Source: Acholoe squamosa (Eukaryota > Annelida > Polychaeta > Phyllodocida > Polynoidae). Taken from it: 64,000 nucleotides of DNA. The notes beneath the pieces are model-generated. The model had not been told where the DNA came from and ran no database searches. It saw nothing but the letters and a program-made list of their open reading frames with translations. Below are positions 23,891-64,000 of this stretch, one piece after another. The position numbers and the translations under genes were made by a program. Numbering within the stretch: position 1 is the stretch's first letter; each line of letters starts with the position of its first letter. The DNA lies in contig OX439047.1 in assembly GCA_949317995.1 (NCBI GenBank), positions 2,156,501-2,220,500 on the forward strand, given 5' to 3'.

Positions 23891-23945
23891 TACAACATGA
23901 AGAGGTTCTGTAAGAGTAACTAAACAGCCCATACCAGGGGCAGTA

Positions 23946-24426: not shown

Positions 24427-27400
24427 CGTTAAGCGTGTTACCTGTCTGAGGTTGTAGGTTTATGTAAAATGTGTTACCTGTCTGAGGTTGTAGATTTATG
24501 TATAGAGTGTTTTCCTGTCTGAGGTTGTAGATTTATGTAAAGCGTGTTACCTGTCTAAGGTTGTAGATTTATGTATAGCGTGTTACCTGTCTAAGGTTGT
24601 AGATTAATGTAAAGCATGTTACCTGTCTGAGGTTGTAGATTTATGTAAAGCATGTTACCTGTCTGAGGTTGTAGATTTATGTAAAGCATGTTACCTGTCT
24701 GGGGTTGTAGATTTATGTATAGCGTGTTACCTGTCTGAGGTTGTAGATTTATGTATAGCGTGTTACCTGTCTGAGGTTGTAGATTTATGAAAAGTGTGTT
24801 ACCTGTCAGAGGTTGTAGATTTATGTAAAGCGTGTTACCTGTCTGAGGTTGTAGATTTATGTATAGTGTGTTACCTGTCTGAGGTTGTAGATTTATGTAT
24901 AGCGTGTTACCTGTCTGAGGTTGTAGATTTATGAAAAGTGTGTTACCTGTCTGAGGTTGTAGATTTATGTATAGCGTGTTACCTGTCTGAGGTTGTAGAT
25001 TTATGAAAAGTGTGTTACCTGTCAGAGGTTGTAGATTTATGTAAAGTGTGTTACCTGTCTGAGGTTGTAGATTTATGTATAGCGTGTTACCTGTCTGAGG
25101 TTGTAGATTTATGAAAAGTGTGTTACCTGTCTGAGGTTGTAGATTTATGTATAGAGTGTTACCTGTCTGAGGTTATAGATTTATGAAAAGCGTATTACCT
25201 GTCTGAGGTTGTAGATTTATGTAAAGCGTGTTACCTGTCTGAGGTTGTAGATTTAAGTAAAGCGTGTTACCTGTCTGAGGTTGTAGATTTATGTATAGAG
25301 TGTTACCTGTCTGAGGTTGTAGATTTATGTATAGCATGTTACCTGTCTGAGGTTGTAGATTTATGTAAAGCATGTTACCTGTCTGAGGTTGTAGATTTAT
25401 GTAAAGCGTGTTACCTGTCTGAGGTTGCAGATTTATGTAAAGCATGTTACCTGTCAGAGGTTGTAGATTTATGTAAAGCGTGTTACCTGTCTGAGGTTGC
25501 AGATTTATGTGAAGCGTGTTACCTGTCTGAGGTAGTAGATTTAAGTAAAGCGTTTTACCTGTCTGAGGTTGCAGATTTAAGTAAAGCCAGTTACCTGTCT
25601 GAGGTTGTAGATTTATGAAAAGCATGTTACCTGTCTGAGGTTTTAGATTTAGGAAAAGCCTGTTACCTGTCTGAGGTTGTAGATTCATGTAAAGCGTGTT
25701 ACCTGTCTGAGTTGTAGAGTCATGAAAAGCATGTTACCTGTCTGAGGTTGTAGATTTATGTGTAGCATTTTACCTGTCTGAGGTTGTAGATTTATGTAAA
25801 GCGTGTTACCTGTCTGAGGTTGTAGAGTCATGAAAAGCATGTTACCTGTCTGAGGTTATAGATTTATGTGTAGCATTTTACCTGTCTGAGGTTGTAGATT
25901 TATGTAAAGCGTGTTACCTGTATGAGGTTGTAGATTTATGTATAGCATGTTACCTGTCTGAGGTTGTAGATTTATGTATAGCATGTTACCTGTCTGAGGT
26001 AAATTCATGTATAGCATGTTACCTGTCTGAGGTTGTAGATTTATGAAAAGCGTGTTACCTGTCTGAGGTTGTAGATTTAAGTAAAGCGTGTTACCTGTCT
26101 GAGGTTGTAAATTTATGTAAAGTGTGTTACCTGTCTGAGGTTGTAGATCTATGTAAAGCATGTAACCTGTCTGAGGTTGTAGATTTAAGTAAAGCGTGTT
26201 ACCTGTCTGAGGTTGTAGATTTATGTATAGAGTGTTACCTGTCTGAGGTTGTAGATTTATGTAAAGTGTGTTAACTGTCTGAGGTTGTAAATTTATGTAA
26301 AGTGTGTTACCTGTCTGAGGTTGTAGATCTATGTAAAGCATGTAACCTGTCTGAGGTTGTCGATTTAAGTAAAGCATGTTACCTGTCTGAGGTTGTAGAT
26401 TTAAGTAAAGCGTGTTACCTGGCTGAGGTTGTAGATTTATGTAAAGCGTGTTACCTGTCTGAGGTTGTAGATTCATGTAAAGCGTGTTTCCTGTCTGAGT
26501 TGTAGAGTCATGAAAAGCATGTTACCTGTCTGAGGTTGTAGATTTATGTGTAGCGTTTTACCTGTCTAAGGGTTGTAGATTTATGTAAAGCGTGTTACCT
26601 GTCTGAGGTTGTAGATTTATGTATAGCATGGTACCTGTCTGAAGTAAATTCATGTATAGCATGTTACCTGTCTGAGGTTGTAGATTTATGAAAAGCGTGT
26701 TACCTGTCTGAGGTTGTAGATTTAAGTAAAGTGTCTTACCTGTCTGAGGTTGTAGATTTATGTAAAGTGTGTTACCTGTCTGAGGTTGTAAATTAATGAA
26801 AAGTGTGTTACCTGTCTGAGGTTGTAGATTTATGTAAAGTGTGTTACCTGTCTGAGGTTGTAGATCTATGTAAAGCATGTAACCTGTCTGAGGTTGTAGA
26901 TTTATGTAAAGCATGTTACCTGTCTGGGGTTGTAGATTTATGTATAGAGTGTTACCTGTCTCAGGTTGTAGATTTAAGTAAAGCGTGTTACCTGTCTGAG
27001 GTTGTAGATTTATGTAAAGCATGTTACCTGTCTGAGGTTGTAAATTTATGTAAAGTGTGTTACCTGTCTGAGGTTGCAGATTTATGAAAAGCGTGTTACC
27101 TGTCTGAGGTTGTAGATTTATGTATAGCGTGTTACCTGTCTGAGGTTGTAGATTTATGAAAAGTGTGTTACCTGTCAGAGGTTGTAGATTTATGTAAAGC
27201 GTGTTACCTGTCTGAGGTTGTAGATTTATGTATAGTGTGTTACCTGTCTGAGGTTGTAGATTTATGTATAGCGTGTTACCTGTCTGAGGTTGTAGATTTA
27301 TGTAAAGTGTGTTACCTGTCTGAGGTTGTAGATTTATGTATAGCGTGTTACCTGTCTGAGGTTGTAGATTTATGAAAAGTGTGTTACCTGTCTGAGGTTG

Positions 27401-30400
27401 TAGATTTATGTACAGAGTGTTACCTGTCTGAGGTTATAGATTTATGAAAAGCGTATTACCTGTCTGAGGTTGCAGATTTATGTAAAGCGTGTTACCTGTC
27501 TGAGGTTGTAGATTTAGGAAAAGCGTGTTACCTGTCTGAGGTTGTAGATTCATGTAAAGCGTGTTTCCTGTCTGAGTTGTAGAGTCATGAAAAGCATGTT
27601 ACCTGTCTGAGGTTGTAGATTTATGTCTTGCATGTTACCTGTCTGAGGTTGTAGATTTATGTAAAGCATGTTACCTGTCTGAGGTTGTAGATTTATGTAA
27701 AGCGTGTTACCTGTCTGAGGTTGCAGATTTATGTAAAGCATGTTACCTGTCAGAGGTTGTAGATTTATGTAAAGCGTGTTACCTGTCTGAGGTTGCAGAT
27801 TTATGTGAAGCGTGTTACCTGTCTGAGGTAGTAGATTTAAGTAAAGCGTGTTACCTGTCTGAGGTTGCAGATTTAAGTAAAGCCAGTTACCTGTCTGAGG
27901 TTGTAGATTTATGAAAAGCATGTTACCTGTCTGAGGTTTTAGATTTAGGAAAAGCCTGTTAGCTGTCTGAGGTTGTAGATTCATGTAAAGCGTGTTACCT
28001 GTCTGAGTTGTAGAGTCATGAAAAGCATGTTACCTGTCTGAGGTTGTAGATTTATGTGTAGCATTTTACCTGTCTGAGGTTGTAGATTTATGTAAAGCGT
28101 GTTACCTGTCTGAGGTTGTAGAGTCATGAAAAGCATGTTACCTGTCTGAGGTTATAGATTTATGTGTAGCATTTTACCTGTCTGAGGTTGTAGATTTATG
28201 TAAAGCGTGTTACCTGTATGAGGTTGTAGATTTATGTATAGCATGTTACCTGTCTGAGGTAAATTCATGTATAGCATGTTACCTGTCTGAGGTTGTAGAT
28301 TTATGAAAAGCGTGTTACCTGTCTGAGGTTGTAGATTTAAGTAAAGCGTGTTACCTGTCTGAGGTTGTAAATTTATGTAAAGTGTGTTACCTGTCTGAGG
28401 TTGTAGATCTATGTAAAGCATGTAACCTGTCTGAGGTTGTAGATTTAAGTAAAGCGTGTTACCTGTCTGAGGTTGTAGATTTATGTATAGAGTGTTACCT
28501 GTCTGAGGTTGTAGATTTATGTAAAGTGTGTTACCTGTCTGAGGTTGTAAATTTATGTAAAGTGTGTTACCTGTCTGAGGTTGTAGATCTATGTAAAGCA
28601 TGTAACCTGTCTGAGGTTGTCGATTTAAGTAAAGCATGTTACCTGTCTGAGGTTGTAGATTTAAGTAAAGCGTGTTACCTGGCTGAGGTTGTAGATTTAT
28701 GTAAAGCGTGTTACCTGTCTGAGGTTGTAGATTCATGTAAAGCGTGTTTCCTGTCTGAGTTGTAGAGTCATGAAAAGCATGTTACCTGTCTGAGGTTGTA
28801 GATTTATGTGTAGCGTTTTACCTGTCTGAGGTTGTAGATTTATGTAAAGTGTGTTACCTGTCTGAGGTTGTAGATTTATGTATAGCATGTTACCTGTCTG
28901 AAGTAAATTCATGTAAAGCGTGTTACCTGTCTGAGGTTGTAGATTTATGAAAAGGGTGTTACCTGTCTGAGGTTGTAGACTTAAGTAAAGCGTCTTACCT
29001 GTCTGAGGTTGTAGATTTATGTAAAGTGTGTTACCTGTCTGAGGTTGTAAATTAATGAAAAGTGTGTTACCTGTCTGAGGTTGTAGATTTATGTAAAGTG
29101 TGTTACCTGTCTGAGGTTGTAGATCTATGTAAAGCATGTAACCTGTCTGAGGTTGTAGATTTATGTAAAGCATGTTACCTGTCTGGGGTTGTAGATTTAT
29201 GTATAGAGTGTTACCTGTCTGAGGTTGTAGATTTAAGTAAAGCGTGTTACCTGTCTGAGGTTGTAGATTTATGTAAAGCGTGTTACCTGTCTGAGGTTGT
29301 AAATTTATGTAAAGTGTGTTACCTGTCTGAGGTTGCAGATTTATGAAAAGCGTGTTACCTGTCTGAGGTTGTAGATTTAAGTAAAGCATGTTACCTGTCT
29401 GAGGTTGTAGATTTATGTAAAGCTTGTTACCTGTCTGAGGTTGTAGATTTATGTAAAGTGTGTTACCTGTCTGAGGTTGTAGATTTATGTAAAGCGTGTT
29501 ACCAGTCTGAGGTTGTAGATTTATGTAAAGTGTGTTACCTGTCTGAGGTTGTAGATTTATGTATAGAGTGTTACCTGTCTGAGGTTGTAGATTTAGGAAA
29601 AGCGTGTTACCTGTCTGAGGTTGTAGATTTATGTAAAGCGTGTTACCTGTCTGAGGTTGTAAATTTATGTAAAGTGTGTTACCTGTCTGAGGTTGCAGAT
29701 TTATGTATAGAGTGTTACCTGTCTGAGGTTGTAGATTTAAGTAAAGCGTGTTACCTGTCTGAGGTTGTAAATTTATGTAAAGTGTGTTACCTGTCTGAGG
29801 TTGTAGATTTAAGTAAAGCGTGTTACCTGTCCGAGGTTGTAGATTTATGTAAAGCGTGTTACCTGTCTGAGGTTGTAGATTTATGTAAAGTGTGTTACCT
29901 GTCTGAGGTTGTAGATTTATGTATAGAGTGTTACCTGTCTGAGGTTGTAGATTTAGGAAAAGCGTGTTACCTGTCTGAGGTTGTAGATTTATGTATAGAG
30001 TGTTACCTGTCTGAGGTTGTAGATTTATGTAAAGCGTGTTACCTGTCTGAGGTTGCAGATTTATGTAAAGCGTGTTACCTGTCTGAGGTTGTAGATTTAG
30101 GAAAAGCGTGTTACCTGTCTGAGGTTGTAGATTCATGTAAAGCGTGTTTCCTGTCTGAGTTGTAGAGTCATGAAAAGCATGTTACCTGTCTGAGGTTGTA
30201 GATTTATGTGTAGCATTTTACCTGTCTGAGGTTGTAGATTTATGTAAAGCGTGTTACCTGTCTGAGGTTGTAGATTCATGTTAAGTGTGTTACCTGTCCA
30301 AGGTTGTAGATTTATGTAAAGTGTGTTACCTGTCCGAGGTTGTAGATCTATGTAAAGCATGTAACCTGTCTGAGGTTGTAGATTTATGTAAAGCATGTTA

Positions 30401-33400
30401 CCTGTCTGGGGTTGTAGATTTATGTATAGAGTGTTACCTGTCTGAGGTTGTAGATTTAAGTAAAGCGTGTTACCTGTCTGAGGTTGTAGATTTATGTAAA
30501 GCGTGTTACCTGTCTGAGGTTGCAGATTTATGTAAAGCGTGTTACCTGTCTGAGGTTGTAGATTTATGTAAAGTGTGTTACCTGTCTGAGGTTGTAGATT
30601 TATGTAAAGCGTGTTACCTGTCTGAGGTTGTAGATTTATGTAAAGTGTGTTACCTGTCTGAGGTTGTAGATTTATGTATAGAGTGTTACCTGTCTGAGGT
30701 TGTAGATTTAGGAAAAGCTTGTTACCTGTCTGAGGTTGTAGATTTATGTAAAGCGTGTTACCTGTCTGAGGTTGTAAATTTATGTAAAGTGTGTTACCTG
30801 TCTGAGGTTGCAGATTTATGTATAGAGTGTTACCTGTCTGAGGTTGTAGATTTAAGTAAAGCGTGTTACCTGTCCGAGGTTGTAGATTTATGTAAAGCGT
30901 GTTACCTGTCTGAGGTTGTAGGTTTATGTAAAGTGTGTTACCTGTCTGAGGTTGTAGATTTATGTATAGAGTGTTACCTGTCTGAGGTTGTAGATTTAGG
31001 AAAAGCGTGTTACCTGTCTGAGGTTGTAGATTTATGTATAGAGTGTTACCTGTCTGAGGTTGTAGATTTAGGAAAAGCGTGTTACCTGTCTGAGGTTGTA
31101 GATTTATGTAAAGCGTGTTACCTGTCTGAGGTTGTAAATTTATGTAAAGTGTGTTACCTGTCTGAGGTTGCAGATTTATGTATAGAGTGTTACCTGTCTG
31201 AGGTTGTAGATTTAAGTAAAGCATGTTACCTGTCTGAGGTTGTAGATTTATGTAAAGCTTGTTACCTGTCTGAGGTTGTAGATTTATGTAAAGTGTGTTA
31301 CCTGTCTGAGGTTGTAGATTTATGTAAAGCGTGTTACCAGTCTGAGGTTGTAGATTCATGTAAAGTGTGTTACCTGTCTGAGGTTGTAGATTTATGTATA
31401 GAGTGTTACCTGTCTGAGGTTGTAGATTTAGGAAAAGCGTGTTACCTGTCTGAGGTTGTAGATTTATGTAAAGCGTGTTACCTGTCTGAGGTTGTAAATT
31501 TATGTAAAGTGTGTTACCTGTCTGAGGTTGCAGATTTATGTATAGAGTGTTACCTGTCTGAGGTTGTAGATTTAAGTAAAGCGTGTTATCTGTCTGAGGT
31601 TGTAAATTTATGTAAAGTGTGTTACCTGTCTGAGGTTGTAGATTTAAGTAAAGCGTGTTACCTGTCCAAGGTTGTAGATTTATGTAAAGCGTGTTACCTG
31701 TCTGAGGTTGTAGATTTATGTAAAGTGTGTTACCTGTCTGAGGTTGTAGATTTATGTATAGAGTGTTACCTGTCTGAGGTTGTAGATTTAGGAAAAGCGT
31801 GTTACTTGTCTGAGGTTGTAGATTTATGTAAAGCGTGTTACCTGTCTGAGGTTGCAGATTTATGTAAAGCGTGTTACCTGTCTGAGGTTGTAGATTTAGG
31901 AAAAGCGTGTTACCTGTCTGAGGTTGTAGATTCATGTAAAGCGTGTTTCCTGTCTGAGTTGTAGAGTCATGAAAAGCATGTTACCTGTCTGAGGTTGTAG
32001 ATTTATGTGTAGCATTTTACCTGTCTGAGGTTGTAGATTTATGTAAAGCGTGTTACCTGTCTGAGGTTGTAGAGTCATAAGAAGCATGTTACCTGTCTGA
32101 GGTTGTAGATTCATGTGTAGCGTTTTACCTGTCTGAGGTTGTAGATTTATGTAAAGCGTGTTACCTGTCTGAGCTTGTAGATTTATGTATAGCATGTTAC
32201 CTGTCTGAGGTTGTAGATTTATGTATAGCATGTTACCTGTCTGAGGTAAATTCATGTATAGCATGTTACCTGTCTGAGGTTGTAGATTTATGAAAAGCGT
32301 GTTACCTGTCTGAGGTTGTAGATTTAGGAAAAGCGTGTTACCTGTCTGAGGTTGTAGATTCATGTAAAGCGTGTTTCCTGTCTGAGTTGTAGAGTCATGA
32401 AAAGCATGTTACCTGTCTGAGGTTGTAGATTTATGTGTAGCATTTTACCTGTCTGAGGTTGTAGATTTATGTAAAGCGTGTTACCTGTCTGAGGTTGTAG
32501 ATTCATGTAAAGTGTGTTACCTGTCCAAGGTTGTAGATTTATGTAAAGTGTGTTACCTGTCCGAGGTTGTAGATTTATGTAAAGTGTGTTACCTGTCCGA
32601 GGTTGTAGATTTATGTATAGAGTGTTACCTGTCTGAGGTTGTAGATTTATGAAAAGCGTGTTACCTGTCTGAGGTTGTAGATTTAAGTAAAGCGTCTTAC
32701 CTGTCTGAGGTTGTAGATTTATGTAAAGTGTGTTACCTGTCTGAGGTTGTAAATTTATGTAAAGTGTGTTACCTGTCTGAGGTTGTAGATTTATGTAAAG
32801 TGTGTTACCTGTCTGAGGTTGTAGATTTAGGTATAGAGTGTTACCTGTCTGAGGTTGTAGATTTATGTAAAGGGTGTTACCTGTCTGAGGTTGTAGATTT
32901 ATGTAAAGCGTGTTACCTGTCTGAGGTTGTAGATTTATGTAAAGCGTGTTACCTGTCCGAGGTTGTAGACTTATGTAAAGTGTGTTACCTGTCTGAGGTT
33001 GTAGATTTATGTATAGAGTGTTACCTGTCTGAGGTTGCAGATTTATGTAAAGCGTGTTACCTGTCTGAGGTTGCAGATTTATGTAAAGCGTGTTACCTGT
33101 CTGAGGTTGTAGATTTATGTAAAGTGTGTTACCTGTCTGAGGTTGTAGATTTATGAAAAGCGTGTTACCGGTCTGAGGTTGTAGATTTATGTAAAGCGTG
33201 TTACCTGTCTGAGGTTGTAGATTTATGTAAAGTGTGTTACCTGTCTGAGGTTGTAGATTTATGAAAAGCGTGTTACCGGTCTGAGGTTGTAGATTTATGT
33301 AAAGCGTGTTACCTGTCAGAGGTTGTAGATTTATGTAAAGCATGTTACCTGTCTGAGGTTGTAGATTTATGTATAGAGTGTTACCTGTCTGAGGTTGTAG

Positions 33401-33832
33401 ATTTATGCATAGAATGTTACCTGTCTGAGGTTGTAGATTTATGTAAAGCGTGTTACCTGTCAGAGGTTGTAGATTTATGTAAAGTGTGTTACCTGTCTGA
33501 GGTTGTAGATTTATGTATAGCGTGTTACCTGTCTGAGGTTGTAGATTTATGTAAAGCGTGTTACCTGTCTGAGGTTGTAGATTTATGTAAAGCGTGTTAC
33601 CTGTCTGAGGTTGCAGATTTATGTAAAGCGTGTTACCTGTCTGAGGTTGTAGATTTATGTAAAGTGTGTTACCTGTCTGAGGTTGTAGATTTATGTAAAG
33701 CGTGTTACCTGTCTGAGGTTGTAGATTTATGTAAAGGGTGTTACCTGTCTGAGGTTGTAGATTTATGCATAGAGTGTTACCTGTCTGGGGTTGCAGATTT
33801 ATGTAAAGCGTGTTACCTGTCTGAGGTTGGTA
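24427..33832. repeat. 36-bp minisatellite (about 260 copies) overlapping the stalk-exon splice donor
   Basis: On the minus strand each unit codes NLQPQTGNTLYI and contains CAACCTCAGACAG followed by GTAACA. The first unit (33,805-33,832) includes the real 3' end of the stalk exon and its donor at 33,816. Most units keep the donor. Variant 34-bp units (GTCTGAGTTGTAGAGTCATG) recur at about 25,710, 26,495, 27,570, 28,000, 28,755, 30,155, 31,955 and 32,385 and shift the frame, marking higher-order repeats. A block around 25,540-26,500 recurs at about 27,830-28,760. The + strand is also open in places (CYLSEVVDLCKV), because no unit position makes a stop in that frame. Confidence 0.95.
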
Positions 33833-33879
33833 TGAGGAGTCACTGTGCACACTTATGAGCGGGTGTTTGCCATCATCCT
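33817..33879 (-). CDS. Stalk exon (21 codons) of the kringle receptor
   Basis: Acceptor TTTGTCACACAG, donor CAG|GTAACA; 63 nt, phase 1 on both sides, coding (E)DDGKHPLISVHSDSSYQPQT(G). It joins the last kringle to the transmembrane exon. Its 3' tail is the seed-like edge of the 36-bp array, and the reading frame continues open into the intron to about 32,360. Confidence 0.75.
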
Positions 33880-34446: not shown

Positions 34447-34566
34447 CACACGTAGGTATATCACAATAATCCCATTGTTTGTTGGGGTCAGTCGTGAAAC
34501 ACCACGGGCCTCCAAACTCGTTCTGCTCCGGGTTTCTGCAGTAGTTCTCTGCTGCATCAAGGTCAT
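34447..34566 (-). CDS. Kringle 6, second-half exon
   Basis: 120 nt, acceptor TTTTCACAG, donor TGTG|GTAAGT. It codes [20 protein letters not shown], then WCFTTDP and WDYCDIPTC, the typical end of a kringle with its last three cysteines. It pairs with the first-half exon at 55,037-55,171 over a 20.5-kb intron. Its acceptor lies only 29 bp from the end of a DNA transposon. Confidence 0.92.
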
Positions 34567-34989
34567 CTGTGAAAATGATACATAATGACTCATAGGGGTG
34601 ACTGTCAGAAAAAGTCTACAAAACAGGGAAAATCATGGTTTTTGACTGTTATGCAGGCACAAATTAAAAAATACATATTCATTCTTGTCTTCAATGGTCT
34701 CATCTTATAGGAAACATCCTAGACTTTCAGAAAAATATCAATTTGGGGTTGTATGGTAAGAATTTCTGGAGTTATCAGGTCACAAAGTTGAAAAAACATC
34801 AAAAAACCTGTTTTTTTTTCAGTTTTGGTAATCTTGTACATGTCCTCATGTTCATTCAAAGATGAGAAACCCATCCAAAATTGGTTGTGGTATTAGGCAT
34901 ACGTTGGGCCTACAAGATTTATAGCCGTTTAGGTGGGTGTTGATTGAAAATGTCCTGCTATGGTCACTCGGATGTTGAATTTTAATCGT

Positions 34990-36258
34990 TGAGGCGTCTG
35001 CGACAATAACTCTTACATCAGAATAAATCTATCAGTAACAGTCACACAACATCTGTAATAAATTCCATATAAAGGTCTTATAAAGGGTTGAAGTTTGTAT
35101 AAAAAATTTAGCTGTCGGCCCAGTGGTCCCTGACTTGTGGGTCAAAATGTGAGCGCGGATTGTGTTTTCGTCGCAGACGCCTCATTTACATTATACACTG
35201 TTAATAATTTATTTAAATATTCATTTGCTTTTCTCATATGTCATATGATCCAACATGGCCTGCTGGTCGATTCTGATATGCATTGGCTTGGCTCTTGGCC
35301 TGCGGTGCAGCACTTTGAGTACCATTCGTCATGTCAGAGGTTTTCGTCGCAGACGCCTCAAGATTTTGTGGCGCCAAAGTTGTCGCCGTCTGGTGTTAAC
35401 CGGCAGAAGTAAACTGCATCTGGAAGCCTCGTTTTCAATAGAGAAGTGTCGTTTCTGTTTTTGTACAGAATCTCACCGAAGAATCTCTTCAAATTTTGCC
35501 AAAAATCTCCATCAAAGGTAAGGAATCGGATGAAATATAATTTTGAATCAAAAGATTATCCCCCCTAGTTGTTGCTGATGTGGTTAGACTATGTTAAATT
35601 GTCCTTATTTTGATGAGAACAATATCATTTGTTTAGATTAGAATGCGTCCCGGACAGGGAAGGCCTTCACTATGTTACATTTGGGCGATATTTGATGCGA
35701 ACTCAAATCCGTGAGGCGTCTGCGACGAAAACTCCGGTCAAAGAAAATCCTCTCTCGCGAGCATCATATGCTTCCCTAGGGTCATCACTTCATTGAAATG
35801 GGTAAAAAAGATGTCTCCCAATTATTTTAAGGTATTTAATACCTGTTATGTCAAACTCTAGTCAAGGCTTGGTGGTACTAAACTTTAGTTTGGCCCAAAA
35901 CTACCTCAGATTGCCACAGAAAATCGCACCTCTGATTGGAATTTAGCGTTCCTATGCAGTTTTTTGTGATTAAAATGATACTTTGTACTGCTATACATCG
36001 ATTTTGTGTGTTAGAATTAAAATGGCATCACTTATTTGGCCACAACAAGCCATAAAGTGTAAAAATTAGTTTTCGTCGCAGACGCCTCCGACGGAAATGA
36101 AATTCCGCTCCTGTAATCTTGCAATGCATCATCCATGCAATATCTATTCTTGGTAGGCTAGGACACATTGATGTTCAATGTCTCGACCCAAAAAAATAAC
36201 ATTTCCAGCATATTTTTGGTAATTTATTCCACTTTTAGTTTTCGTCGCAGACGCCTCA
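34990..36258. repeat. Six copies of a 20-nt motif, left arm of the DNA transposon
   Basis: Motif TTTTCGTCGCAGACGCCTCA: minus at 34,990-35,010 (with CAATAAC end) and 35,712-35,732; plus at 35,164-35,184, 35,340-35,360, 36,069-36,088 and 36,238-36,258. Surrounding sequence is unrelated between copies, so the motif itself is conserved and may be a protein-binding site, for example for a transposase. Confidence 0.9.
35255..35516 (+). CDS. Possible first exon of the transposon gene
   Basis: Open from ATG 35255 (MACWSILICIGLALGLRC, a signal-peptide-like start) through an Arg-rich part that reads across one motif copy, to a consensus donor AAAG|GTAAGG at 35,517. The phase (2) fits the acceptor before 36,469, so it would read into the MPRPKLPPDQ exon. 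It could equally be a non-coding 5' exon. Confidence 0.35.
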
Positions 36259-36469
36259 TTTCATCATTTTCTCTTCAAAAGAATATTTGCAGTCAACATA
36301 ACTGACAAATATTTTACCAGAAGATGCCCCTACCCTAAGCCTATTTATGCACAAAGTAGCTTTGCAATTGTTAAAAAAAAAATTGGGGGGGGTCCCTACC
36401 CCTGGTGTGAAATTCAAGTTTTCCTCATTTTTTTCCATCTCTACATACATTTATCATTCATCTTCCAGC

Positions 36470-36670
36470 ATGCCACGTCCGAAGTTACCGCCTGACCAGG
36501 TCAAGAGTTCAGCGCAGAGGAGCCGAGAGTGTCAGGAACGAAAAAAGGCACGTGACGAGGCCGCCCAGCTAAGACATGAAGCAGACCTTCGAGCTGCATC
36601 AAGGGCTCGGGTCAAGGAGCGTGAGACCCCAGAGAAGGGTAGAGATCGTCAAGAGGACTCAAACCAGCGG
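36470..36670 (+). CDS. Exon of uncharacterised transposon-borne gene (basic, helical)
   Basis: 67 codons from ATG 36470 (MPRPKLPPDQVKSSAQRSRE onward) to donor CGG|GTAAAT. A good acceptor (CATCTTCCAG) precedes the ATG by one base. The protein is rich in Arg, Lys, Glu and Ala with helical character and looks like a nucleic-acid-binding or coiled-coil N-terminus. Family unknown. GC content and codon use differ sharply from the surrounding AT-rich DNA, which supports real coding. Confidence 0.6.
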
Positions 36671-37608: not shown

Positions 37609-37609
37609 C

Positions 37610-51905: not shown

Positions 51906-51944
51906 TTAAATCATTTTATGTACAGTACCTACCATAAATAAAGG

Positions 51945-54003
51945 GGCAGGGGTCGCAGTAGCAGTGTGGGTGTATTGTTATATATAAGACGTACCTGTAT
52001 GGAAGGGGCAGAGGTCCTAGTAGCAGTGACGGTGTATTATATAGAACCTACCATCAGGGAAGGGGCAGGGGTCCTAGTAGCAGTGACGGTGTATTATATA
52101 GAACCTACCATCAGGGAAGGGGCAGGGGTCATAGTAGCAGTGACGGTGTATTATATAGAACCTACCGTCAGGGAAGGGGCAGGGGACGTAGTAGCAGTGA
52201 CAGTGTATTATATAGAACCTACCATCGGGGAAGGGGCAGGGGTCGTAGTAGCAGTGACGGTGTATTATATAGAACCTACCATCAGGGAAGGGGCAGGGGT
52301 CGTAGTAGCAATGACGGTGTATTATATAGAACCTACCATCAGGGAAGGGGCAGGGGTCGTAGTAGCAGTGACGGTGTATATATAGAACCTACCGTCAGGG
52401 AAGGGGCAGGGGTCGTAGTAGCAGTGACGGTGTATTATATAGAACCTACCACCAGGGAAGGGGCAGGGGTCGTAGTAGCAGTGACAGTGTATTATATAGA
52501 ACCTACCGTCAGGGAAGGGGCAGGGGTCGTAGTAGCAGTGACGGTGTATATATAGAACCTACCGTCAGGGAAGGGGCAGGGGTCGTAGTAGCAGTGACGG
52601 TGTATTATATAGAACCTACCATCAGGGAAGGGGCAGGGGTCGTAGTGGGAGTGATGGTGTATTATATAGAACCTACCGTCAGGGAAGTGGTAGTGGTCCT
52701 AGTAGCAGTGACAGTGTATATATAGAACCTACCGTCAGGGAAGGGGCAGGGGTCATAGTAGCAGTGATGGTGTATTATATAGAACCTACCATCAGGGAAG
52801 GGGCAGAGGTCGTAGTGGGAGTGACAGTGTATTATATAGAACCTACCATCAGGGAAGGGGCAGGGGTCGTAGTGGGAGTGATGGTGTATTATATAGAACC
52901 TACAGTTATGGAAGGGAGTGATGGTGTATTATATAGAACCCTCCGCCAGGGAAGTGGCAGTGGTCCTAGTAGCAGTGACAGTGTATATATAGAACCTACT
53001 GTCAGGGAAGGGGCAGGGGTCATAGTAGCAGTGATGGTGTATTATATAGAACCTACCATCAGGGAAGGGGCAGGGGTCGTAGTAGCAGTGACAGTGTATT
53101 ATATAGAACCTACCATCAGGGAAGGGGCAGGGGTCGTAGTGGGAGTGATGGTGTATTATATAGAACCTACCGCCAGGGAAGTGGCAGTGGTCCTAGTAGC
53201 AGTGACAGTGTATATATAGAACCTACTGTCAGGGAAGGGGCAGGGGTCGTAGTAGCAGTGACGGTGTATTATATAGAACCCACCATCAGGGAAGGGGCAG
53301 GGGTCGTAGTGGGAGTGATGGTGTATTATATAGAACCTACCGTCAGGGAAGTGGCAGTGGTCCTAGTAGCAGTGACGGTGTATATATAGAACCTACCGTC
53401 AGGGAAGGGGCAGGGGTCATAGTAGCAGTGACGGTGTATTATATAGAACCTACCATCAGGGAAGGGGCAGGGGTTGTAGTAGCAGTGACAGTGTATTATA
53501 TAGAACCTACCATCAGGGAAGGGGCAGGGGTCGTAGTAGCAGTGACGGTGTATTATATAGAACCTACCATCAGGGAAGGGGCAGAGGTCGTAGTGGGAGT
53601 GACAGTGTATTATATAGAACCTACCATCAGGGAAGGGGCAGGGGTCGTAGTGGGAGTGATGGTGTATTATATAGAACCTACAGTTATGGAAGGGGCAGGG
53701 GTCATAGTAGCAGTGACAATGTATATATAGAACCTACCACCAGGGAAGGGGCAGGGGTCATAGTAGCAGTGACAATGTATATATAGAACCTACCATCAAG
53801 GAAGGGGCAGGGGTCGTAGTAGCAGTGATGGTGTATTATATAGAACCTACCGTCAGGGAAGGGGCAGGGGTCGTAGTAGCAGTGACAGTGTATTATATAG
53901 AACCTACCATCAGGGAAGGGGCAGGGGACGTAGTAGCAGTGATGGTGTATTATATAGAACCTACCGTCAGGGAAGGGGCAGGGGTCATAGTAGCAGTGAC
54001 GGT
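51945..54003. repeat. 57-bp minisatellite built from the end of a kringle exon and its donor
   Basis: About 36 units. On the minus strand each unit reads YYDPCPFPDG followed by GTAGGTTCTATA, that is, the last codons and the splice donor of the kringle exon at 55,037-55,171, plus the first intron bases. Most units are 57 bp (19 codons); a minority with GTATATATAG are about 2 bp shorter and shift frame. Decayed units continue to about 51,060, across the MITE. Confidence 0.92.
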
Positions 54004-54006
54004 AAG

Positions 54007-54128
54007 CTAATAGATGATGCATATCGGGGCCCTAGGGCTGTATATGCTGTATATACCTGAGCCGCGGAGCGGCGAGGGTATATACAGCATATACAGCCCG
54101 TGGGGCCCCAATATGCATCACCTAATAG
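54007..54128. repeat. Long near-perfect hairpin
   Basis: Arms of about 50-55 bp share GATGCATAT, GGGGCCC and GGGCTGTATATGCTGTATA and pair with only a few mismatches around a short GC-rich centre. It starts where the 57-bp array is interrupted, so it is part of the insert between the array and its source exon. Confidence 0.75.
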
Positions 54129-54292
54129 GTTTATACCACCGTTTCCTCCATTTTGTATTAATTTCTTACCTGATATCCAAAGATTATAGCCAGGAGAATA
54201 CATTTTGTAAAAGCAAGCGACACGGCCCGGGTCAGCGCTCTGCGCAAAGCCATTGTTTTTGTTCCTTGCCGGGAGAGGTACCGCTGTGTATA

Positions 54293-54697
54293 CAGTCACT
54301 TTTCGTATGGAATCCAACCATGACAAGTTTTCAAATTAAAACATACATATCCTTAGACATTCTAGATGAGTACTCCATGCTTGATATGTCCAATATATTC
54401 AAAATAAATAAGAATCCATTGATTTTCCCAACGTACGCGTGTCGCGGTCCAGCCATTCCCACCCGCCTCCTTGTTCGGCGAAAGTGTGTCAGTGGCCCGC
54501 ATGTAGATATAGGTCAACTGCTCGCCATACAAGAAAGACGCCGAAAATTTCGGACCCGTTTGGAAAATCAATGGATTCTTATTTATATCGAAGAAAATGG
54601 AGAAAACTAGCACGCATTACTCGTCTATGGATCGAAAACTTCTTGTGATTTCAATATTATAACATAAAAAGGTTGGATTCCATACGAAAACTGACTG
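54293..54697. mobile_element. Foldback element
   Basis: The ends CAGTCACTTTTCGTATGG (54,293) and its complement (54,671-54,697), and inner matches around AATAAGAATCCATTGATTTT (54,407-54,427 and 54,562-54,585), make an imperfect inverted repeat of about 400 bp. No open gene is inside that I can support. Confidence 0.55.
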
Positions 54698-54734
54698 GAA
54701 ACATAGCAGGTTAGAACTTATTTATTTTGGCATT

Positions 54735-55005
54735 GTGTTTCATCACCGTTCAGTGTGGCGCTATGGCTAAGGCCTTCGCCTACCACCACTGCGGCCGGGG
54801 TTCAATCCTCATACGAGTTGGGACGATTTTTCACATTGAAACAATGGCGAGGCTAAATTTCTATGTCCGCCAGCGTCTCCAAAAATATTCTAAGTCCAAC
54901 TTGACCTCGAAAAAGTATATACCAAAAATTTCAAAAATGCACATGGGTGGTATATGCAGAATAATGCACGGCTAAACTGCATATAAACCCACCGGAAGTG
55001 CCGAA
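54735..55005 (+). mobile_element. tRNA-derived SINE (candidate)
   Basis: A-box-like TGGCTAAGGCC (54,764-54,774) and a good B box GGTTCAATCC (54,799-54,808) are 35 nt apart, as in tRNA promoters, but the acceptor arms do not pair, so it is not a working tRNA gene. A tRNA-unrelated body follows. Confidence 0.5.
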
Positions 55006-55036
55006 ATCGTGGTATAATGTATTATATAGAACCTAC

Positions 55037-55171
55037 CGTCAGGGAAGGGGCAGGGGTTGTAGTAGCGGTGTGAGTGTGGCGTCTGTGAGCTCCATTTCTG
55101 ACACATGAACCCTGACCTTGTCTTGTTCACCTTGCCACCATACTCATGTCCTGCCTTGGTTGTGGTGCATT
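55037..55171 (-). CDS. Kringle 6, first-half exon
   Basis: 135 nt, acceptor TTTTTTCCAG, donor GACG|GTAGGT, phase 1 both sides. It codes (E)CTTTKAGHEYGGKV, then TRSGFMCQKWSSQTPHSH and YYNPCPFPD. The Cys, GxxY, SGxxCQxW and PHxH features are those of the kringle N-terminal half. The second half is 20.5 kb away at 34,447. Confidence 0.92.
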
Positions 55172-55613
55172 CTGGAAAAAAATAACAATACTTGATGATT
55201 CTTTTTAAAGCCAATTATTGATGTATATATACCTCAGTTTGCTAAGAAAATCACTTGCTGAACTGTCAACATCTTTCCAGACTGGTTACAAGATCAGGAT
55301 GCTAATTGGCTGAGAGATAGTGGCACAAAAAACAACAAAAATAAACCTATATGTTTTGATATCATTAAAGAATAGTGTACACAGAGCTGAATACTGTCAG
55401 CAAGTCTCAGTCATCTTAAAGTTTACTTTTAGGTACTAAAACAAGATACAAACACGGAATGGCACATCATCATACAACACCGACAGGGTCAGATCAAGGA
55501 TTTTGAAAAGGGGGGCGCACCCCTCATTTAGCCCCTAATTTTGACTAAATTCTAGGGTGAAGGGAAAAAGGGGGGGGGGTGCGCCCCTGCGCCCCCTCTA
55601 AATCTGCCACTGA

Positions 55614-55684
55614 TTACACCTACCACAGAATGGTACAGTAGTCCCAGAGAACGTCGGGATCAGTCGCCAGGGACCACGGTCCCT
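55614..55684 (-). pseudogene. Decayed duplicate of the kringle 5 second-half exon
   Basis: The stretch GGACCGTGGTCCCTGGCGAC to TACCATTCTGTG|GTAGG (minus strand) parallels the end of the exon at 55,732-55,870. It lacks the first cysteine codon (TGC to TCC), has lost several bases before the last cysteine, and has no upstream half. It keeps the donor. Confidence 0.7.
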
Positions 55685-55731
55685 CCATATGATATACGTT
55701 ACATACCTATAGATACATACATGACACCTAC

Positions 55732-55870
55732 CACAGAATGGTACGTCACAGTAGTCCCACAGTACGTCGGGATCAGTCGTCAGGCACCACGGACCATTCG
55801 GCTCCCACATGTCTGGGTTTCTGCAGAAATTTGATGAGTCAGCAAAATTGTCATCTGGAAACTGTTCAAT
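55732..55870 (-). CDS. Kringle 5, second-half exon
   Basis: 139 nt, acceptor TTTGTTGCAG, donor TGTG|GTAGGT; phase 0 in, phase 1 out. It codes [20 protein letters not shown], then GPWCLTTDP and WDYCDVPFC. It pairs with the exon at 56,221. Confidence 0.9.
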
Positions 55871-56220: not shown

Positions 56221-56336
56221 CTTGGTATAAGGGTGTTGATGAGGTGCCTGGGAGTCCCACTTCTGACACGAGTAGCCTCTATGTGTTACAGACATAGTAC
56301 CTGTGTACGTCCAACCGCCTTTATTCACTTTACATC
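56221..56336 (-). CDS. Kringle 5, first-half exon
   Basis: 116 nt, acceptor CATTTTGCAG, donor CAAG|GTATGT; phase 1 in, phase 0 out. It codes (G)CKVNKGGWTYTGTMSV, then GYSCQKWDSQAPHQHPYTK. Its phase 0 donor differs from the other kringle exons and matches the phase 0 acceptor of the next exon. Confidence 0.9.
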
Positions 56337-56602: not shown

Positions 56603-56737
56603 CACAGTCAGGTACATCACAGTACTCCCACTCCACCTCAGGGTCCAGTGTGTAACACCATGGTCCATCAGGGCGGGACCGGTCCGGGTTCCTGCATGCG
56701 TCTCCCGCCTCCTGTATGCTGCCGTCTGAGAAGGCAC
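56603..56737 (-). CDS. Kringle 4, second-half exon
   Basis: 135 nt, acceptor CTCCTTCCAG, donor TGTG|GTAAGT. It codes AFSDGSIQEAGDACRNPDRS, then GPWCYTLDP and WEYCDVPDC. Tyr is replaced by Ala in the usual NYCRNP motif (DACRNP). Confidence 0.92.
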
Positions 56738-56895: not shown

Positions 56896-57015
56896 CTGGA
56901 GTATTGTAGTTGTGTCTGTGTGGTACCTGCTGGTCCCAGCGCTGACAGGCCCGGTATGACATGGTGTGCGATATGGTACCTCTGTATGTGTGTCCTGTAC
57001 GGGACAACTTACAGT
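56896..57015 (-). CDS. Kringle 4, first-half exon
   Basis: 120 nt, acceptor TGTTACACAG, donor CCAG|GTACCA. It codes (D)[16 protein letters not shown], then [18 protein letters not shown]. The preceding linker exon supplies the first base of the Asp codon. Confidence 0.92.
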
Positions 57016-57052
57016 CTGTGTAACATAGAAACATTATACACTATAATACCTT

Positions 57053-57175
57053 TGTACATGTGTCCTGATTGTGACAGCTTATGGTCTGCTCAACATAGGG
57101 ACATAAAAACAATAATTGCAGTACACTATAATTGCACCAACTTGCAGTCTGTTTAACATAGGGACATAGAAACAG
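57053..57175 (-). pseudogene. Two decayed copies of the kringle 4 exon start
   Basis: 57,053-57,106 parallels the acceptor and first ~30 coding bases of the exon above (for example ATGTGTCCTGATTGTGACAG), and 57,131-57,175 repeats only the acceptor region. Neither continues into the rest of the exon. Confidence 0.65.
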
Positions 57176-57198
57176 TACTTGTACACGGCAATACACTC

Positions 57199-57936: not shown

Positions 57937-60900
57937 CCAATAGACGTACATCACGAAAGCTTACGTGGTGTTGGTACTGGTGGGTGTTCTATAGATGTAC
58001 ATCACGATAACTTACGTGGTGTTGGTACTGGCGGGTGTTCTATAGACGTACATCACGATAGCTTACATGGTGTTGGTACTGGTGGGTGTTCTATAGATGT
58101 ACATCATAATAACTTACGTGGTGTTGGTACAGGTGGGTGTTCTATAGACGTACATCATGATAACTTATGTGGTGTTGGTACAGGTGGGTGTTCTATAGAT
58201 GTACATCATGATAACTTATGTGGTGTTGGTACTGGTGGGTGTTCTATAGATGTACATCATGATAACTTATGTGGTGTTGGTACTGGTGGGTGTTCTATAG
58301 ATGTACATCATGATAACTTATGTGGTATTGGTACAGGTGGGTGTTCTATAGATGTACATCACGATAACTTATGTGGTGTTGGTACAGGCGGGTGTTCTAT
58401 AGATGTACATCACGATAACTTATGTGGTGTTGGTACAGGTGGGTGTTCTATAGACGTACAATATGATAACTTACGTGGTGTTGGTACTGGTGGGTGTTCT
58501 ATAGATGTACATCATGATAACTTATGTGGTGTTGGTACTGGTGGGTGTTCTATAGACGTACATCATGATAACTTATGTGGTGTTGGTACTGGTGGGTGTT
58601 CTATAGATGTACATCACGATAACTTATGTGGTGTTGGTACAGGCGGGTGTTCTATAGACGTACATCATGATAACTTACGTGGTGTTGGTACTGGTGGGTG
58701 TTCTATAGATGTACATCACGATAACTTATGTGGTGTTGGTACAGGCGGGTGTTCTATAGACGTACATCATGATAACTTACGTGGTGTTGGTACTGGTGGG
58801 TGTTCTATAGATGTACATCACGATAACTTATGTGGTGTTGGTACTGGTGGGTGTTCTATAGATGTACATCACAATAACTTACCTGGTGTTGGTACTGGCG
58901 GGTGTTCTATAGATGTACATCATAATAACTTACGTGGTGTTGGTACAGGTGGGTGTTCTATAGACGTACATCATGATAACTTACGTGGTGTTGGTACTGG
59001 TGGGTGTTCTATAGATGTACATCATGATAACTTATGTGGTGTTGGTACAGGTGGGTGTTCTATAGATGTACATCACGATAACTTATGTGGTGTTGGTACA
59101 GGCGGGTGTTCTATAGATGTACATCATGATAACTTACTTGGTGTTGGTACAGGCGGGTGTTCTATAGATGTACATCATGATAACTTATGTGGTGTTGGTA
59201 CTGGTGGGTGTTCTATAGATGTACATCACGATAACTTATGTGGTGTTGGTACAGGCGGGTGTTCTATAGATGTACATCATGATAACTTATGTGGTGTTGG
59301 TACAGGCGGGTGTTCTATAGATGTACATCACGATAACTTATGTGGTGTTGGTACAGGTGGGTGTTCTATAGATGTACATCATGATAACTTACTTGGTGTT
59401 GGTACAGGCGGGTGTTCTATAGACGTACATCACGATAACTTATGTGGTGTTGGTACTGGTGGGTGTTCGATAGATGTACATCATGATAACTTACTTGGTG
59501 TTGGTACAGGCGGGTGTTCTATAGATGTACATCACGATAACTTATGTGGTGTTGGTACAGGTGGGTGTTCTATAGATGTACATCACGATAACTTATGTGG
59601 TGTTGGTACAGGTGGGTGTTCTATAGATGTACATCATGATAACTTATGTGGTGTTGGTACAGGCGGGTGTTCTATAGATGTACATCATGATAACTTATGT
59701 GGTGTTGGTACAGGTGGGTGTTCTATAGATGTACATCATGATAACTTATGTGGTGTTGGTACAGGCGGGTGTTCTATAGATGTACATCATGATAACTTAT
59801 GTGGTGTTGGTACAGGTGGGTGTTCTATAGATGTACATCATGATAACTTATGTGGTGTTGGTACAGGCGGGTGTTCTATAGATGTACATCACGATAACTT
59901 ATGTGGTGTTGGTACAGGCGGGTGTTCTATAGATGTACATCACGATAACTTATGTGGTGTTGGTACAGGTGGGTGTTCTATAGATGTACATCATGATAAC
60001 TTATGTGGTGTTGGTACAGGCGGGTGTTCTATAGATGTACATCATGATAACTTATGTGGTGTTGGTACAGGCGGGTGTTCTATAGATGTACATCACGATA
60101 ACTTATGTGGTGTTGGTACAGGTGGGTGTTCTATAGATGTACATCACGATAACTTATGTGGTGTTGGTACAGGTGGGTGTTCTATAGACGTACATCACGA
60201 TAACTTATGTGGTGTTGGTACAGGTGGGTGTTCTATAGATGTACATCATGATAACTTATGTGGTATTTGTACAGGCGGGTGTTCTATAGATGTACATCAC
60301 GATAACTTATGTGGTGTTGGTACTGGCGGGTGTTCTATAGAGGTACATCACGATAACTTATGTGGTGTTGGTACTAGCGGGTGTTCTATAGATGTACATC
60401 ACGATAACTTATGTGGTGTTGGTACTGGTGGGTGTTCTATAGATGTACATCATGATAACTTATGTGGTGTTGGTACAGGCGGGTGTTCTATAGATGTACA
60501 TCATAATAACTTACTTGGTGTTGGTACTGGTGGGTGTTCTATAGATGTACATCATGATAACTTATGTGGTGTTGGTACTGGTGGGTGTTCTATAGATGTA
60601 CATCATGATAACTTATGTGGTGTTGGTACAGGCGGGTGTTCTATAGACGTACATCATGATAACTTATGTGGTGTTGGTACTGGTGGGTGTTCTATAGACG
60701 TACATCATGATAACTTATGTGGTGTTGGTACTGGTGGGTGTTCTATAGATGTACATCATGATAACTTATGTGGTGTTGGTACAGGTGGGTGTTCTATAGA
60801 TGTACATCACGATAACTTATGTGGTGTTGGTACATGCGGGTGTTCTATAGATGTACATCATGATAACTTACTTGGTGTTGGTACAGGCGGGTGTTCTATA

Positions 60901-61534
60901 GATGTACATCACGATAACTTATGTGGTGTTGGTACAGGCGGGTGTTCTATAGATGTACATCATGATAACTTACTTGGTGTTGGTACTGGTGGGTGTTCTA
61001 TAGATGTATATCACGATAACTTATGTGGTGTTGGTACAGGTGGGTGTTCTATAGATGTACATCACGATAACTAACCTGGTGTTGGTACTGGCGGTTGTTC
61101 TATAGATGTACATCACGATAACTTATGTGGTGTTGGTACAGGTGGGTGTTCTATAGATGTACATTATGATAACTTATGTGGTGTTGGTACTGGCGGTTGT
61201 TCTATAGATGTACATCACGATAACTTACGTGGTGTTGGTACAGGTGGGTGTTCTATAGATGTACATCACAATAACTTATGTGGTGTTGGTACTGGTGGGT
61301 GTTCTATAGATGTACATCACGATAACTTATGTGGTGTTGGTACTGGTGGGTGTTCTATAGACGTACATCACGATAACTTATGTGGTGTTGGTACAGGTGG
61401 GTGTTCTATAGACGTACATCACGATAACTTATGTGGTGTTGGTACTGGTGGGTGTTCTATAGATGTACATCACGATAACTTATGTGGTGTTGGTACTGGT
61501 GGGTGTTCTATAGATGTACATCACGATAACTTAC
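57937..61534. repeat. 51-bp minisatellite (about 70 copies) built from a linker exon end and its donor
   Basis: On the minus strand the unit reads GTAAGTTATCGTGATGTACA, a spacer, and CCAGTACCAACACCAC, the last being the 3' end of the linker exon at 61,535-61,594. Periodicity 51 bp is exact (for example 61,480 and 61,531). In most units the donor GT has become AT (TTATGT on the + strand), while a minority with TTACGT or TTACTT keep GTAAGT. Confidence 0.95.
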
Positions 61535-61594
61535 GTGGTGTTGGTACTGGCGGGTACACCTCTTGGTCTGATCCTGCAGCAGGGATCTCCAGCT
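61535..61594 (-). CDS. Linker exon between kringles 3 and 4
   Basis: 60 nt, acceptor GTTTGATGCAG, donor CCAC|GTAAGT, phase 1 both sides, coding (E)LEIPAAGSDQEVYPPVPTP. A Pro-rich extended linker. Its donor is the source-like end of the 51-bp array. Confidence 0.75.
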
Positions 61595-61856: not shown

Positions 61857-61945
61857 CACAAAGTGAGATGTCACAATACTCCCAGCGTTTGTCCGGGTCA
61901 GTAGTATAGCACCAAGGTCCGTTAGGCTCCTGGTCATCAGGGTTT
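61857..61945 (-). CDS. Kringle 3, second part; GC donor
   Basis: 89 nt, acceptor GCATGCTACAG, phase 2 in. It codes [20 protein letters not shown], then WEYCDISLC. The donor is TGTG|GCAAGT, a GC-AG intron at the place where the other kringle exons have GT. Just upstream, in-frame sequence (CNGILAACY) looks like the remains of an older exon start. Confidence 0.8.
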
Positions 61946-62054: not shown

Positions 62055-62220
62055 CTGCAGTAGTTGTGCGAGTCGTGTGCGTGGCCCTCAGGAAACATGG
62101 AGTCCTCATCATAGCTATGTGCGTGAGGAGTCTGTGAGTCCCAGCGCTGACATGATCTGCCTGACACAGTTCTAGAGACTGTCCCACTGTAGTCCATGCC
62201 TGGTATGTCCATCCGACACT
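62055..62220 (-). CDS. Kringle 3, first part
   Basis: 166 nt, acceptor TTATTATCAG, donor TGCAG|GTATTA, phase 2 out. It codes (E)CRMDIPGMDYSGTVSR, then GRSCQRWDSQTPHAHSYDED and HDSHNYCR. The intron sits after NYCR, later than in the other split kringles, so the boundary has shifted. Confidence 0.85.
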
Positions 62221-62261
62221 CTGATAATAAACACAACATAATAACTAACCCTAGCCCTAAC

Positions 62262-62538
62262 CTTGACAAGTTCTGCCTGACACAGTCCTAGATACTGTCC
62301 CACAGTAGTTTGTGCCGGGTATGTCCACCCAATACTCTGTCAATAAACATATCATAGATACAACATAATAACTAACCCTAGCCCTAACCTTGACAAGTTC
62401 TGCCTGACACAGTCCTAGATACTGTCCCACTGCCATCCATGCCCAGTATGTCCACCGGACACTCTGATTATAAATATAAGATATGTATAACATTATAAAT
62501 AACAATGTAGTCCATGCCTGGTACGTTCACCCGACACT
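62262..62538 (-). pseudogene. Three truncated tandem copies of the kringle 3 exon start
   Basis: Copies at about 62,262-62,336, 62,395-62,463 and 62,503-62,538 repeat the acceptor and the first 35-75 coding bases (AGTGTCGGATGGACATAC-like, then GGGACAGTATCTAGGACTGT) and then break off at GTCAAGGTTAGGGCTAGGGT or earlier. None reaches the kringle core. Confidence 0.75.
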
Positions 62539-62727
62539 CTGATAACAGTTAAAAGGTCAAGGGTAAATCTCTGTATAGGGACATGAAATGCCAGTATCCT
62601 AACTGTCTATATCTATTGTAAAGAGGATGAATATCACCCATATTCTAAAATCCTCAGTTAACCTGCAGTTGTCAGCAGATGTCTAATTCTCTACATCATT
62701 TCCTGAGGTTAAGTTATTTAGACCTAC

Positions 62728-62979
62728 CACAATATGGCAGCCCGCAGCGCTCCCAGCGTATCTCAGGTTCGGTGGTGAGGCACCATGGTCCCTCAGAACT
62801 GTCACCTCGTGGGTTACGGCAGTAGTTAGCAGCATCCTCTATACTGCCGTCTGGGAAGTCTGCATCAGTGTAGTCATGGCGATGTGGGATCTGGGCGCTC
62901 CACGACTGGCAGACAAAGCCTGACACTGTTTTATGTTTCAGTCCCATGTAAGTCCTGTCTGCTCGAGATGTCCTACATT
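62728..62979 (-). CDS. Kringle 2, whole domain in one exon
   Basis: 252 nt, acceptor CAACCTTACAG, donor TGTG|GTAGGT, phase 1 both sides. It has the complete kringle: CRTSRADRTYMG, SGFVCQSWSAQIPHRHDY, FPDGSIEDAANYCRNP, GPWCLTTEP and WERCGLPYC, with six cysteines. It is the only kringle here without an internal intron. Confidence 0.93.
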
Positions 62980-63525: not shown

Positions 63526-63653
63526 CACATAAAGGTATATCACAGTACTCGTGCCGTGTGTCGGCTGATGTTGTGTAGCACCAGGGACCAAGGGGTGCCA
63601 TGTTGGGGTTACGGCACTTGTTTAACGCATCAGCAATGGTGGCATCCGACACT
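63526..63653 (-). CDS. Kringle 1 (in this window), second-half exon
   Basis: 128 nt, acceptor TTTATACACAG, donor TGTG|GTAGGT; phase 2 in, phase 1 out. It codes VSDATIADALNKCRNPNMAP, then GPWCYTTSAD and HEYCDIPLC. The usual Trp before the YC pair is His. The first half lies beyond the window. Its acceptor is the edge of the 42-bp array. Confidence 0.82.
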
Positions 63654-64000
63654 CTGTGTATAAAAATGACAATAGCAATGGTGACATCAAACACTCTGTG
63701 TGTAAAAATGACATCAGCAATAAAAATGGCATCATCATTGGTGACATCAGACACTCTGTGTGTAAAGATGACAACAGCAATGGTGACATCAGACAATCTG
63801 TGTGTAAAAATGACAACAGCAATGGTGACATCAGACACTCTGTGTGTAAAAATGACATCAGCAATGGTGACATCAGACACTCTGTGTGTAAAAATGAAAT
63901 CAGCATAACTTGGTGACATCAGACAATCTGTGTGTAAAAATGACATCAGCAATGGTGACATCAGACAGTCAGACACTCTGTGTGTAAAAATGACATCAGC
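63641..64000. repeat. 42-bp minisatellite built from an exon acceptor
   Basis: About 8 units to the window end. On the minus strand each reads CATTTTTACACACAG followed by AGTGTCTGATGTCACC, the acceptor and first coding bases of the exon at 63,526-63,653. Most units are 42 bp (14 codons). Confidence 0.9.

Follow-up and report, generated by a model that had tools for sequence, protein, structure and literature searches.

The closest described relatives of the repeats reported here are the 'mirages' of amphioxus, which the available text of two papers presents as tandem, minisatellite-like copies of an exon-intron boundary, 5′ or 3′, that include the splice signals and lie beside the true exon (PMC3087553, PMC3902484). 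The same text names Adh3 and the globins BflGb6 and BflGb9, and also troponin C and PGBD5, as mirage genes; the length of the mirages differs between haplotypes (BflGb6 has 3 repeat units in one haplotype and 6 in another, and PGBD5 has 2-7), and regular splicing is said to be undisturbed (PMC3087553, PMC3902484). The sizes given are 150-160 for BflGb6 and 157 for BflGb9, in the paper that also proposes intron gain from mirages (PMC3087553), and 60 and 108 bp for PGBD5 (PMC3902484). The Rogers model, as cited in PMC3087553, derives intron gain from duplication across AG/GT proto-splice sites. In human, variable minisatellites occur in paralogues of segmental duplications, and those at an exon-intron boundary may form new introns; the available text of that study gives a unit size of about 30 bp and averages of 4 repeats and 160 bp, half of the minisatellites lying in coding sequence (PMC2812944). 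Minisatellites at boundaries, taken by themselves, are thus found outside amphioxus too. A further paper mentions tandem repeats in its available text, without going further (PMC2206037). Our literature search named no annelid mirage, and any claim of priority is provisional. The statement of the initial annotation of this DNA that no described mechanism seeds tandem arrays at splice junctions overlooks both the amphioxus mirages and the human boundary minisatellites.

The window, by which we mean the whole stretch of 64,000 nucleotides analysed (C13, 2156501-2220500), carries on its minus strand a gene with 13 exons (A-M) set by splice sites and phase (Table 1). Joined, the exons encode 610 whole residues in a single open frame whose sole stop is terminal, and the spliced protein matches Pfam Kringle over six stretches (E = 2.9e-114). 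After the kringles come a stalk and a hydrophobic helix, and the protein ends in a short tail that, read by eye, contains FDNPLY. Plasminogen and HGF were the best matches among solved relatives, and among the best 120 of 3042 protein matches listed, proteins of Ptychodera, Crassostrea, Tubulanus and Owenia had 37-47% identity and the sole Branchiostoma protein (P0039) had 44%. The open frame over 13 exons together with the Pfam Kringle match indicates that the array copies described below do not wreck the gene, and the open spliced frame is consistent with an mRNA spliced as though the arrays were absent. The 10 kb adjoining the window (L009) hold further kringle exons on the same strand as the window gene, and either this gene or a neighbour is predicted to continue past the window end into L009. 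Under the splice model the donor of exon D, at 61856, is apparently GC (GCAAGT).

Table 1. Predicted exons of the kringle gene and local copies of its exon edges, in window positions.
Feature	Positions	Strand	Basis
Exon A, kringle second half	63526..63653	-	splice model; Pfam Kringle on spliced protein
Exon B, whole kringle	62728..62979	-	splice model
Exon C, kringle first part	62055..62220	-	splice model
Exon D, kringle second part, GC donor by model	61857..61945	-	splice model
Exon E, linker	61535..61594	-	splice model
Exon F, kringle first half	56896..57015	-	splice model
Exon G, kringle second half	56603..56737	-	splice model
Exon H, kringle first half	56221..56336	-	splice model
Exon I, kringle second half	55732..55861	-	splice model
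Exon J, kringle first half	55037..55171	-	splice model
Exon K, kringle second half	34447..34566	-	splice model
Exon L, stalk	33817..33879	-	splice model
Exon M, hydrophobic helix, FDNPLY tail, stop codon	23946..24265	-	splice model
42-bp array, acceptor and start of exon A, 7 copies in window including the exon's own	63627..64000	-	
Acceptor and start of exon C, 4 copies including the exon's own, spacings 75, 127 and 116 bp	62148..62545	-	
51-bp array, end and donor of exon E, 71 copies	57940..61555	-	
Old duplicate, acceptor and start of exon F, offset 63-70 bp (63 by BLAST, 70 by anchor)	56977..57181	-	
Duplicate of end and donor of exon I, offset 113 bp	55613..55795	-	
57/56-bp array, end and donor of exon J, 36 copies beside the exon's own	51921..54003	-	
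36-bp array, end and donor of exon L, 261 copies including the exon's own, 9.4 kb	24422..33829	-	

Self-comparison of the window gene revealed local edge copies at 7 of its 25 junctions, namely the acceptors of exons A, C and F and the donors of E, I, J and L, and neither edge of exon B was locally copied in this comparison. The initial annotation had reported four arrays, with units of 36, 57, 51 and 42 bp, each holding one exon edge together with the splice site there, and had placed the 57-bp array about 1 kb away from its exon; counts of the copies and their dinucleotides bear this out, and the gap lies at 54004-55014 and appears as a 1,072-bp step. All four of these arrays are real, but three further copied junctions (C acceptor, F acceptor and I donor) had been missed. 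At the copied junctions the true exon edge forms one end of the array, in the case of J past the ~1-kb insert. GT stands in 252 of the 261 copies of the 36-bp array and in 36/37 of the 57-bp array including the exon's own, AG in 7/7 of the 42-bp array, which runs on into L009 with 5 further copies, and the splice dinucleotide is kept in 4/4 copies of the exon C acceptor and 2/2 of the exon F acceptor; in the 51-bp array of exon E, GT is kept in 19 of 71 copies and lost in 52. The duplicate of the exon I donor was seen by BLAST, and an anchor scan (34+10 bases) gave no second copy of it. Matches among the donors of G, I and A, at 871 and 7,794 bp, reflect ordinary paralogy of exons and were not counted.

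Unit lengths of the four arrays were said by the initial annotation to be all divisible by three, unlike those of nearby arrays outside the gene; the divisibility did not withstand the measurements. Steps of 36 bp make up 245 of the 260 spacings in the 36-bp array, with 35 bp in 8, 33 in 5, and 37 and 73 once each, while the exon E array is spaced by 51 bp in 70/70 and the 42-bp array by 42 bp in 4/6, with 46 and 60 bp remaining. The 57-bp array mixes 57 bp (25/36) with 56 bp (8), the values 1072, 40 and 119 occurring once each, and the offsets at the I donor (113), the C acceptor (75/127/116) and the F acceptor (63-70) are not all multiples of three. A 51-bp array just past the stop codon, at 23623-23896, has a unit that is a multiple of three but lies at no junction. 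In the neighbouring stretches, the TRF periods of arrays are 59, 106, 109, 63, 75 (with 69) and 51 bp; the 59- and 109-bp units lie at credible edges, and the 106-bp unit is without a credible donor. Taken modulo three, the smallest offsets at 17 predicted edges in these stretches left a remainder of 0 in 4, 1 in 6 and 2 in 7, some of the offsets being multiples of the unit. No rule of three exists.

Compared with the amphioxus mirages, as far as the available text of those papers describes them, the arrays are alike in that units span the exon-intron boundary, the true edge lies at the array end and many units keep AG/GT, as in the 36-, 57- and 42-bp arrays and at the C and F acceptors, though in the 51-bp array only 19/71 do. 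They are unlike them in that the host is not a cephalochordate, in that copies number up to 261 over 9.4 kb, and in that seven junctions are affected in one gene, with more in neighbouring kringle stretches. The human minisatellites share expanding units at boundaries in recently duplicated genes, whereas the available text of that study describes no gene with a succession of exon-edge arrays (PMC2812944). The Rogers model, as far as it is cited, likewise has a tandem duplication over a splice signal giving candidate introns or exons, whereas the copies here sit in existing introns and no new intron is shown (PMC3087553). This is a known kind of repeat, and what is provisionally new is its place and size, in a 1.48-Gb annelid genome and with up to 261 copies.

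We read the arrays as mirages, that is, as small junction-straddling tandem duplications in a duplication-prone stretch, tolerated since one intact splice site remains, and assign this reading a probability of roughly 0.7. A small tandem duplication across an exon-intron junction would give rise to a minisatellite; the exon would still end at an intact splice site, the other copies being intronic; and slippage or unequal exchange would later expand and homogenise the units, up to 261 copies. Tolerance rather than use would keep the copies, and the setting would be a duplication-prone kringle-gene cluster that lies on a 71-Mb contig, ~2.2-2.4 Mb in from its low end. Direct observation covers the copies and the splice sites in them, their concentration in the cluster relative to kringle stretches elsewhere and the mixed unit lengths; the junctions may be preferred starting points, or may be only the densest neutral target still detectable.

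Chance offers an alternative that we consider improbable, in which almost any array in a repeat-rich region with dense exons would touch a junction, helped by easier detection where a conserved exon is involved. Such contacts are indeed cheap, as collapsing the arrays and transposons leaves ~7.0 kb of gene with 25 junctions, and a single array in the collapsed gene covers a junction by chance with a probability of 0.13-0.43. Among the 13 clusters of local tandem duplication in the window, however, those in the gene far exceed this rate, with a junction in 7/8 versus 1.95 expected (P = 0.0002), exon J being counted across its 1-kb insert (the cluster call alone shows no junction inside the J cluster). 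The excess persisted without exon J (6/8, P = 0.003), after addition of a 54-bp pair called by TRF only (7/9, P = 0.0007), under a null with true footprints (7/10, P = 0.0003) and for multicopy arrays only (4/5, P = 0.004). Because the window was picked for this very pattern, these in-gene P values are not independent, and other loci were examined.

A kringle search of the 1.48-Gb assembly gave 147 matches, among which we chose 20 stretches of 10 kb, six in the C13 kringle cluster (L009-L014) and 14 on other chromosomes (L015-L028); a search for trypsin exons elsewhere in the assembly gave 152 matches. Exon edges outside the window are predicted rather than annotated, and kringle matches at most 60 bp from a stretch end or wholly inside a tandem cluster were dropped. 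In L009-L014, a predicted kringle edge lies within 17 of 35 tandem clusters, versus 6.4 expected in collapsed space (P < 1e-5), and 2000 rotations gave a mean of 10.8 (sd 1.7, maximum 16). Of these 17 edges, two score poorly as splice sites (L011 5264, in the 106-bp array, and L014 7640). Restriction to credible edges (splice score at least 0, two arrays entered with their TRF units, and removal of the cluster in L009 into which the 42-bp array of the window runs on) left 15/34 clusters versus 5.3 expected (P = 3e-5), which again argues against chance. The 14 stretches on other chromosomes had an edge in 1/23 clusters, where 1.4-1.7 were expected in collapsed space and 3.3 by rotation. A near copy within 400 bp was found for 27/77 edges in L009-L014, a total inflated by array copies scored as exons, versus 0/114 on other chromosomes. 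The claim that arrays lie on junctions more often than under random placement therefore stands for the window gene and the neighbouring kringle stretches, but not for the 14 kringle stretches on other chromosomes.

The chance account also draws on the young multicopy arrays (identity at least 86% and at least 2.5 units), which taken alone are borderline in L009-L014, with 6/19 versus 3.0 expected (P = 0.06), 6/18 versus 2.5 in a second count (P = 0.03) and 5/18 versus 2.1 for credible edges (P = 0.05). Counted edge by edge, the rotation null lies above the data (23.7 expected, 18/50 seen), since an array may come to cover exons once rotated. Detection of old two-copy duplications may be easier where one half is a conserved exon, and part of the association between junctions and arrays, which is regional and patchy, may be such easier detection. 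Tandem clusters occupy 14-80% of L009-L014 and 0-15% of L015-L028. Five further C13 stretches (L032-L036) have tandem clusters over 0-59% of their length, and their 11 clusters are without a tie to exons, no kringle exon having been found there at E<0.1. L036, directly beside L009, has none, versus 59% in L035, so the hot spot is patchy.

Both L011 and L012 contain tandem units spanning an exon-intron boundary. In L011, a 109-bp unit that includes the exon end is present in 12 copies counting the exon's own, with a GT donor in 11/12, and a 59-bp acceptor unit in 8 copies. On the minus strand of L011, at 1018-6711, a kringle exon is preceded by the 59-bp acceptor array, to which a 51-bp array is joined, and followed by a 106-bp array made of copies of the coding end of the kringle. 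The interpretation of this exon as flanked by a two-sided array was withdrawn, the 106-bp donor side being without a credible splice site (score -4.5).

That junctions actively nucleate duplication, for example via transcription-linked breaks or R-loops, is likewise unlikely. The enrichment in the window gene and the neighbouring stretches would suit such an origin, but the kringle stretches elsewhere in the same genome are without it (1/23) and it is borderline if only young arrays are counted (P = 0.03-0.06). R-loops, which the initial annotation had put forward as a seed, favour a G-rich coding strand, and on the coding strand the arrays differ in the sign of their GC skew (-0.52 to +0.51, with about -0.4 for the three big in-gene arrays), which speaks against R-loop seeding as a general cause. 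Going further, one may suppose that junctions are preferred duplication starts in a duplication-prone annelid region, that mirages are independent in annelids and amphioxus, and that the first ~39 of the 36-bp units serve as a reservoir, variable in the population, from which the stalk can be extended in frame in steps of 12 residues; we hold this combination to be distinctly unlikely.

The initial annotation had also suggested selection for frame-neutral splice choice, and the reading frames of the arrays bear on this. Read in the exon frame past the donor, a stop follows after 11 nt for E, 62 for J, 131 for I and 1,454 for L, and the open frame extends 347 nt upstream of the acceptor at A (to the window end), 67 at C and 25 at F, so that 2/7 junction arrays (those of L with 36-bp and A with 42-bp units) are open at length in exon phase. 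In unit register, the 36-bp array has an in-frame stop in 6/245 full-length units, beginning with index 157, and a length that shifts the frame in 10/260 units, beginning with index 39; with a frame open over 1,454 nt, coding use of this array is possible. Its exon frame has the lowest replacement/silent ratio of the six (0.51), but the 51-bp array, with an in-frame stop in 69/70 units, has a ratio of 0.22 in its stop-filled exon frame; since a stop-filled frame scores lower than an open one, this ratio is no sign of coding. With its lost donors (52/71) and these stops, the 51-bp array itself bears no sign of use. That the arrays are kept as many equivalent frame-neutral splice sites, lengthening the stalk or kringle in whole-codon steps, is therefore very improbable: the GT retention and long open frame of the 36-bp array and the open 42-bp array fit it, but the early stops past the array donors of E, J and I, the frame-shifting units of the 36-bp array, the 56-bp units within the 57-bp array and the 59- and 109-bp units at credible edges of neighbouring stretches do not.

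If mirages, as we read these arrays, occur well outside cephalochordates, they would represent a general way in which introns grow and from which new introns might arise. As the edge duplications vary in age and copy number, the growth of a two-copy duplication into a 9-kb array may be traceable step by step within one gene family, and the locus lets one ask how the spliceosome picks among up to 261 near-identical donors.

Several other repeats and elements were observed in the window. A 58-bp array of ~130 copies lies outside the gene at 10752-19513. Positions 1-10500 are AT-rich with many plus-strand open frames, among them integrase-like, ATPase-like (GPSNSGKT), protease-like and dUTPase-like ones, and look, judged from the translated frames, like a Polinton/Maverick element. 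The intron between exons J and K contains a Ty3/gypsy-type LTR element (37228-50066) whose LTRs are identical at 379/381 positions; it has a single pol frame encoding reverse transcriptase, RNase H and integrase domains, and an extra frame of 991 residues downstream of pol (45210-48185). It is enclosed by an outer element (34592-50982) with 24-bp inverted ends (22/24 alike), in which a 15-bp motif occurs seven times (GAGGCGTCTGCGACG or its complement, one copy with a change); the left end of this outer element lies ~26 bp from the exon K acceptor. The insert at 54004-55014 holds a tRNA-like B-box stretch (GGTTCAATCC) and is, by eye, perhaps a SINE.

The mitochondrial contig of the assembly (15,641 bp) carries COX1, and its genes lie on one strand in the order nad4L nad4 (presumed rRNA stretch) nad1 nad3 nad2 cox1 cox2 atp8 cox3 nad6 cob atp6 nad5, cox1 having been identified by family search and the others named from their translations. 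We take this order to be the annelid ground pattern; in cephalochordate mitochondria atp6 follows atp8. An amphioxus origin of the DNA was considered and rejected on the 1.48-Gb genome size, this mitochondrial order and the mere 44% identity to the Branchiostoma protein; an annelid origin is very likely, although the named protein matches taken alone do not decide it. At ~4370-4870 of L030, a long TATATG-type microsatellite occupies part of the presumed mitochondrial control region.
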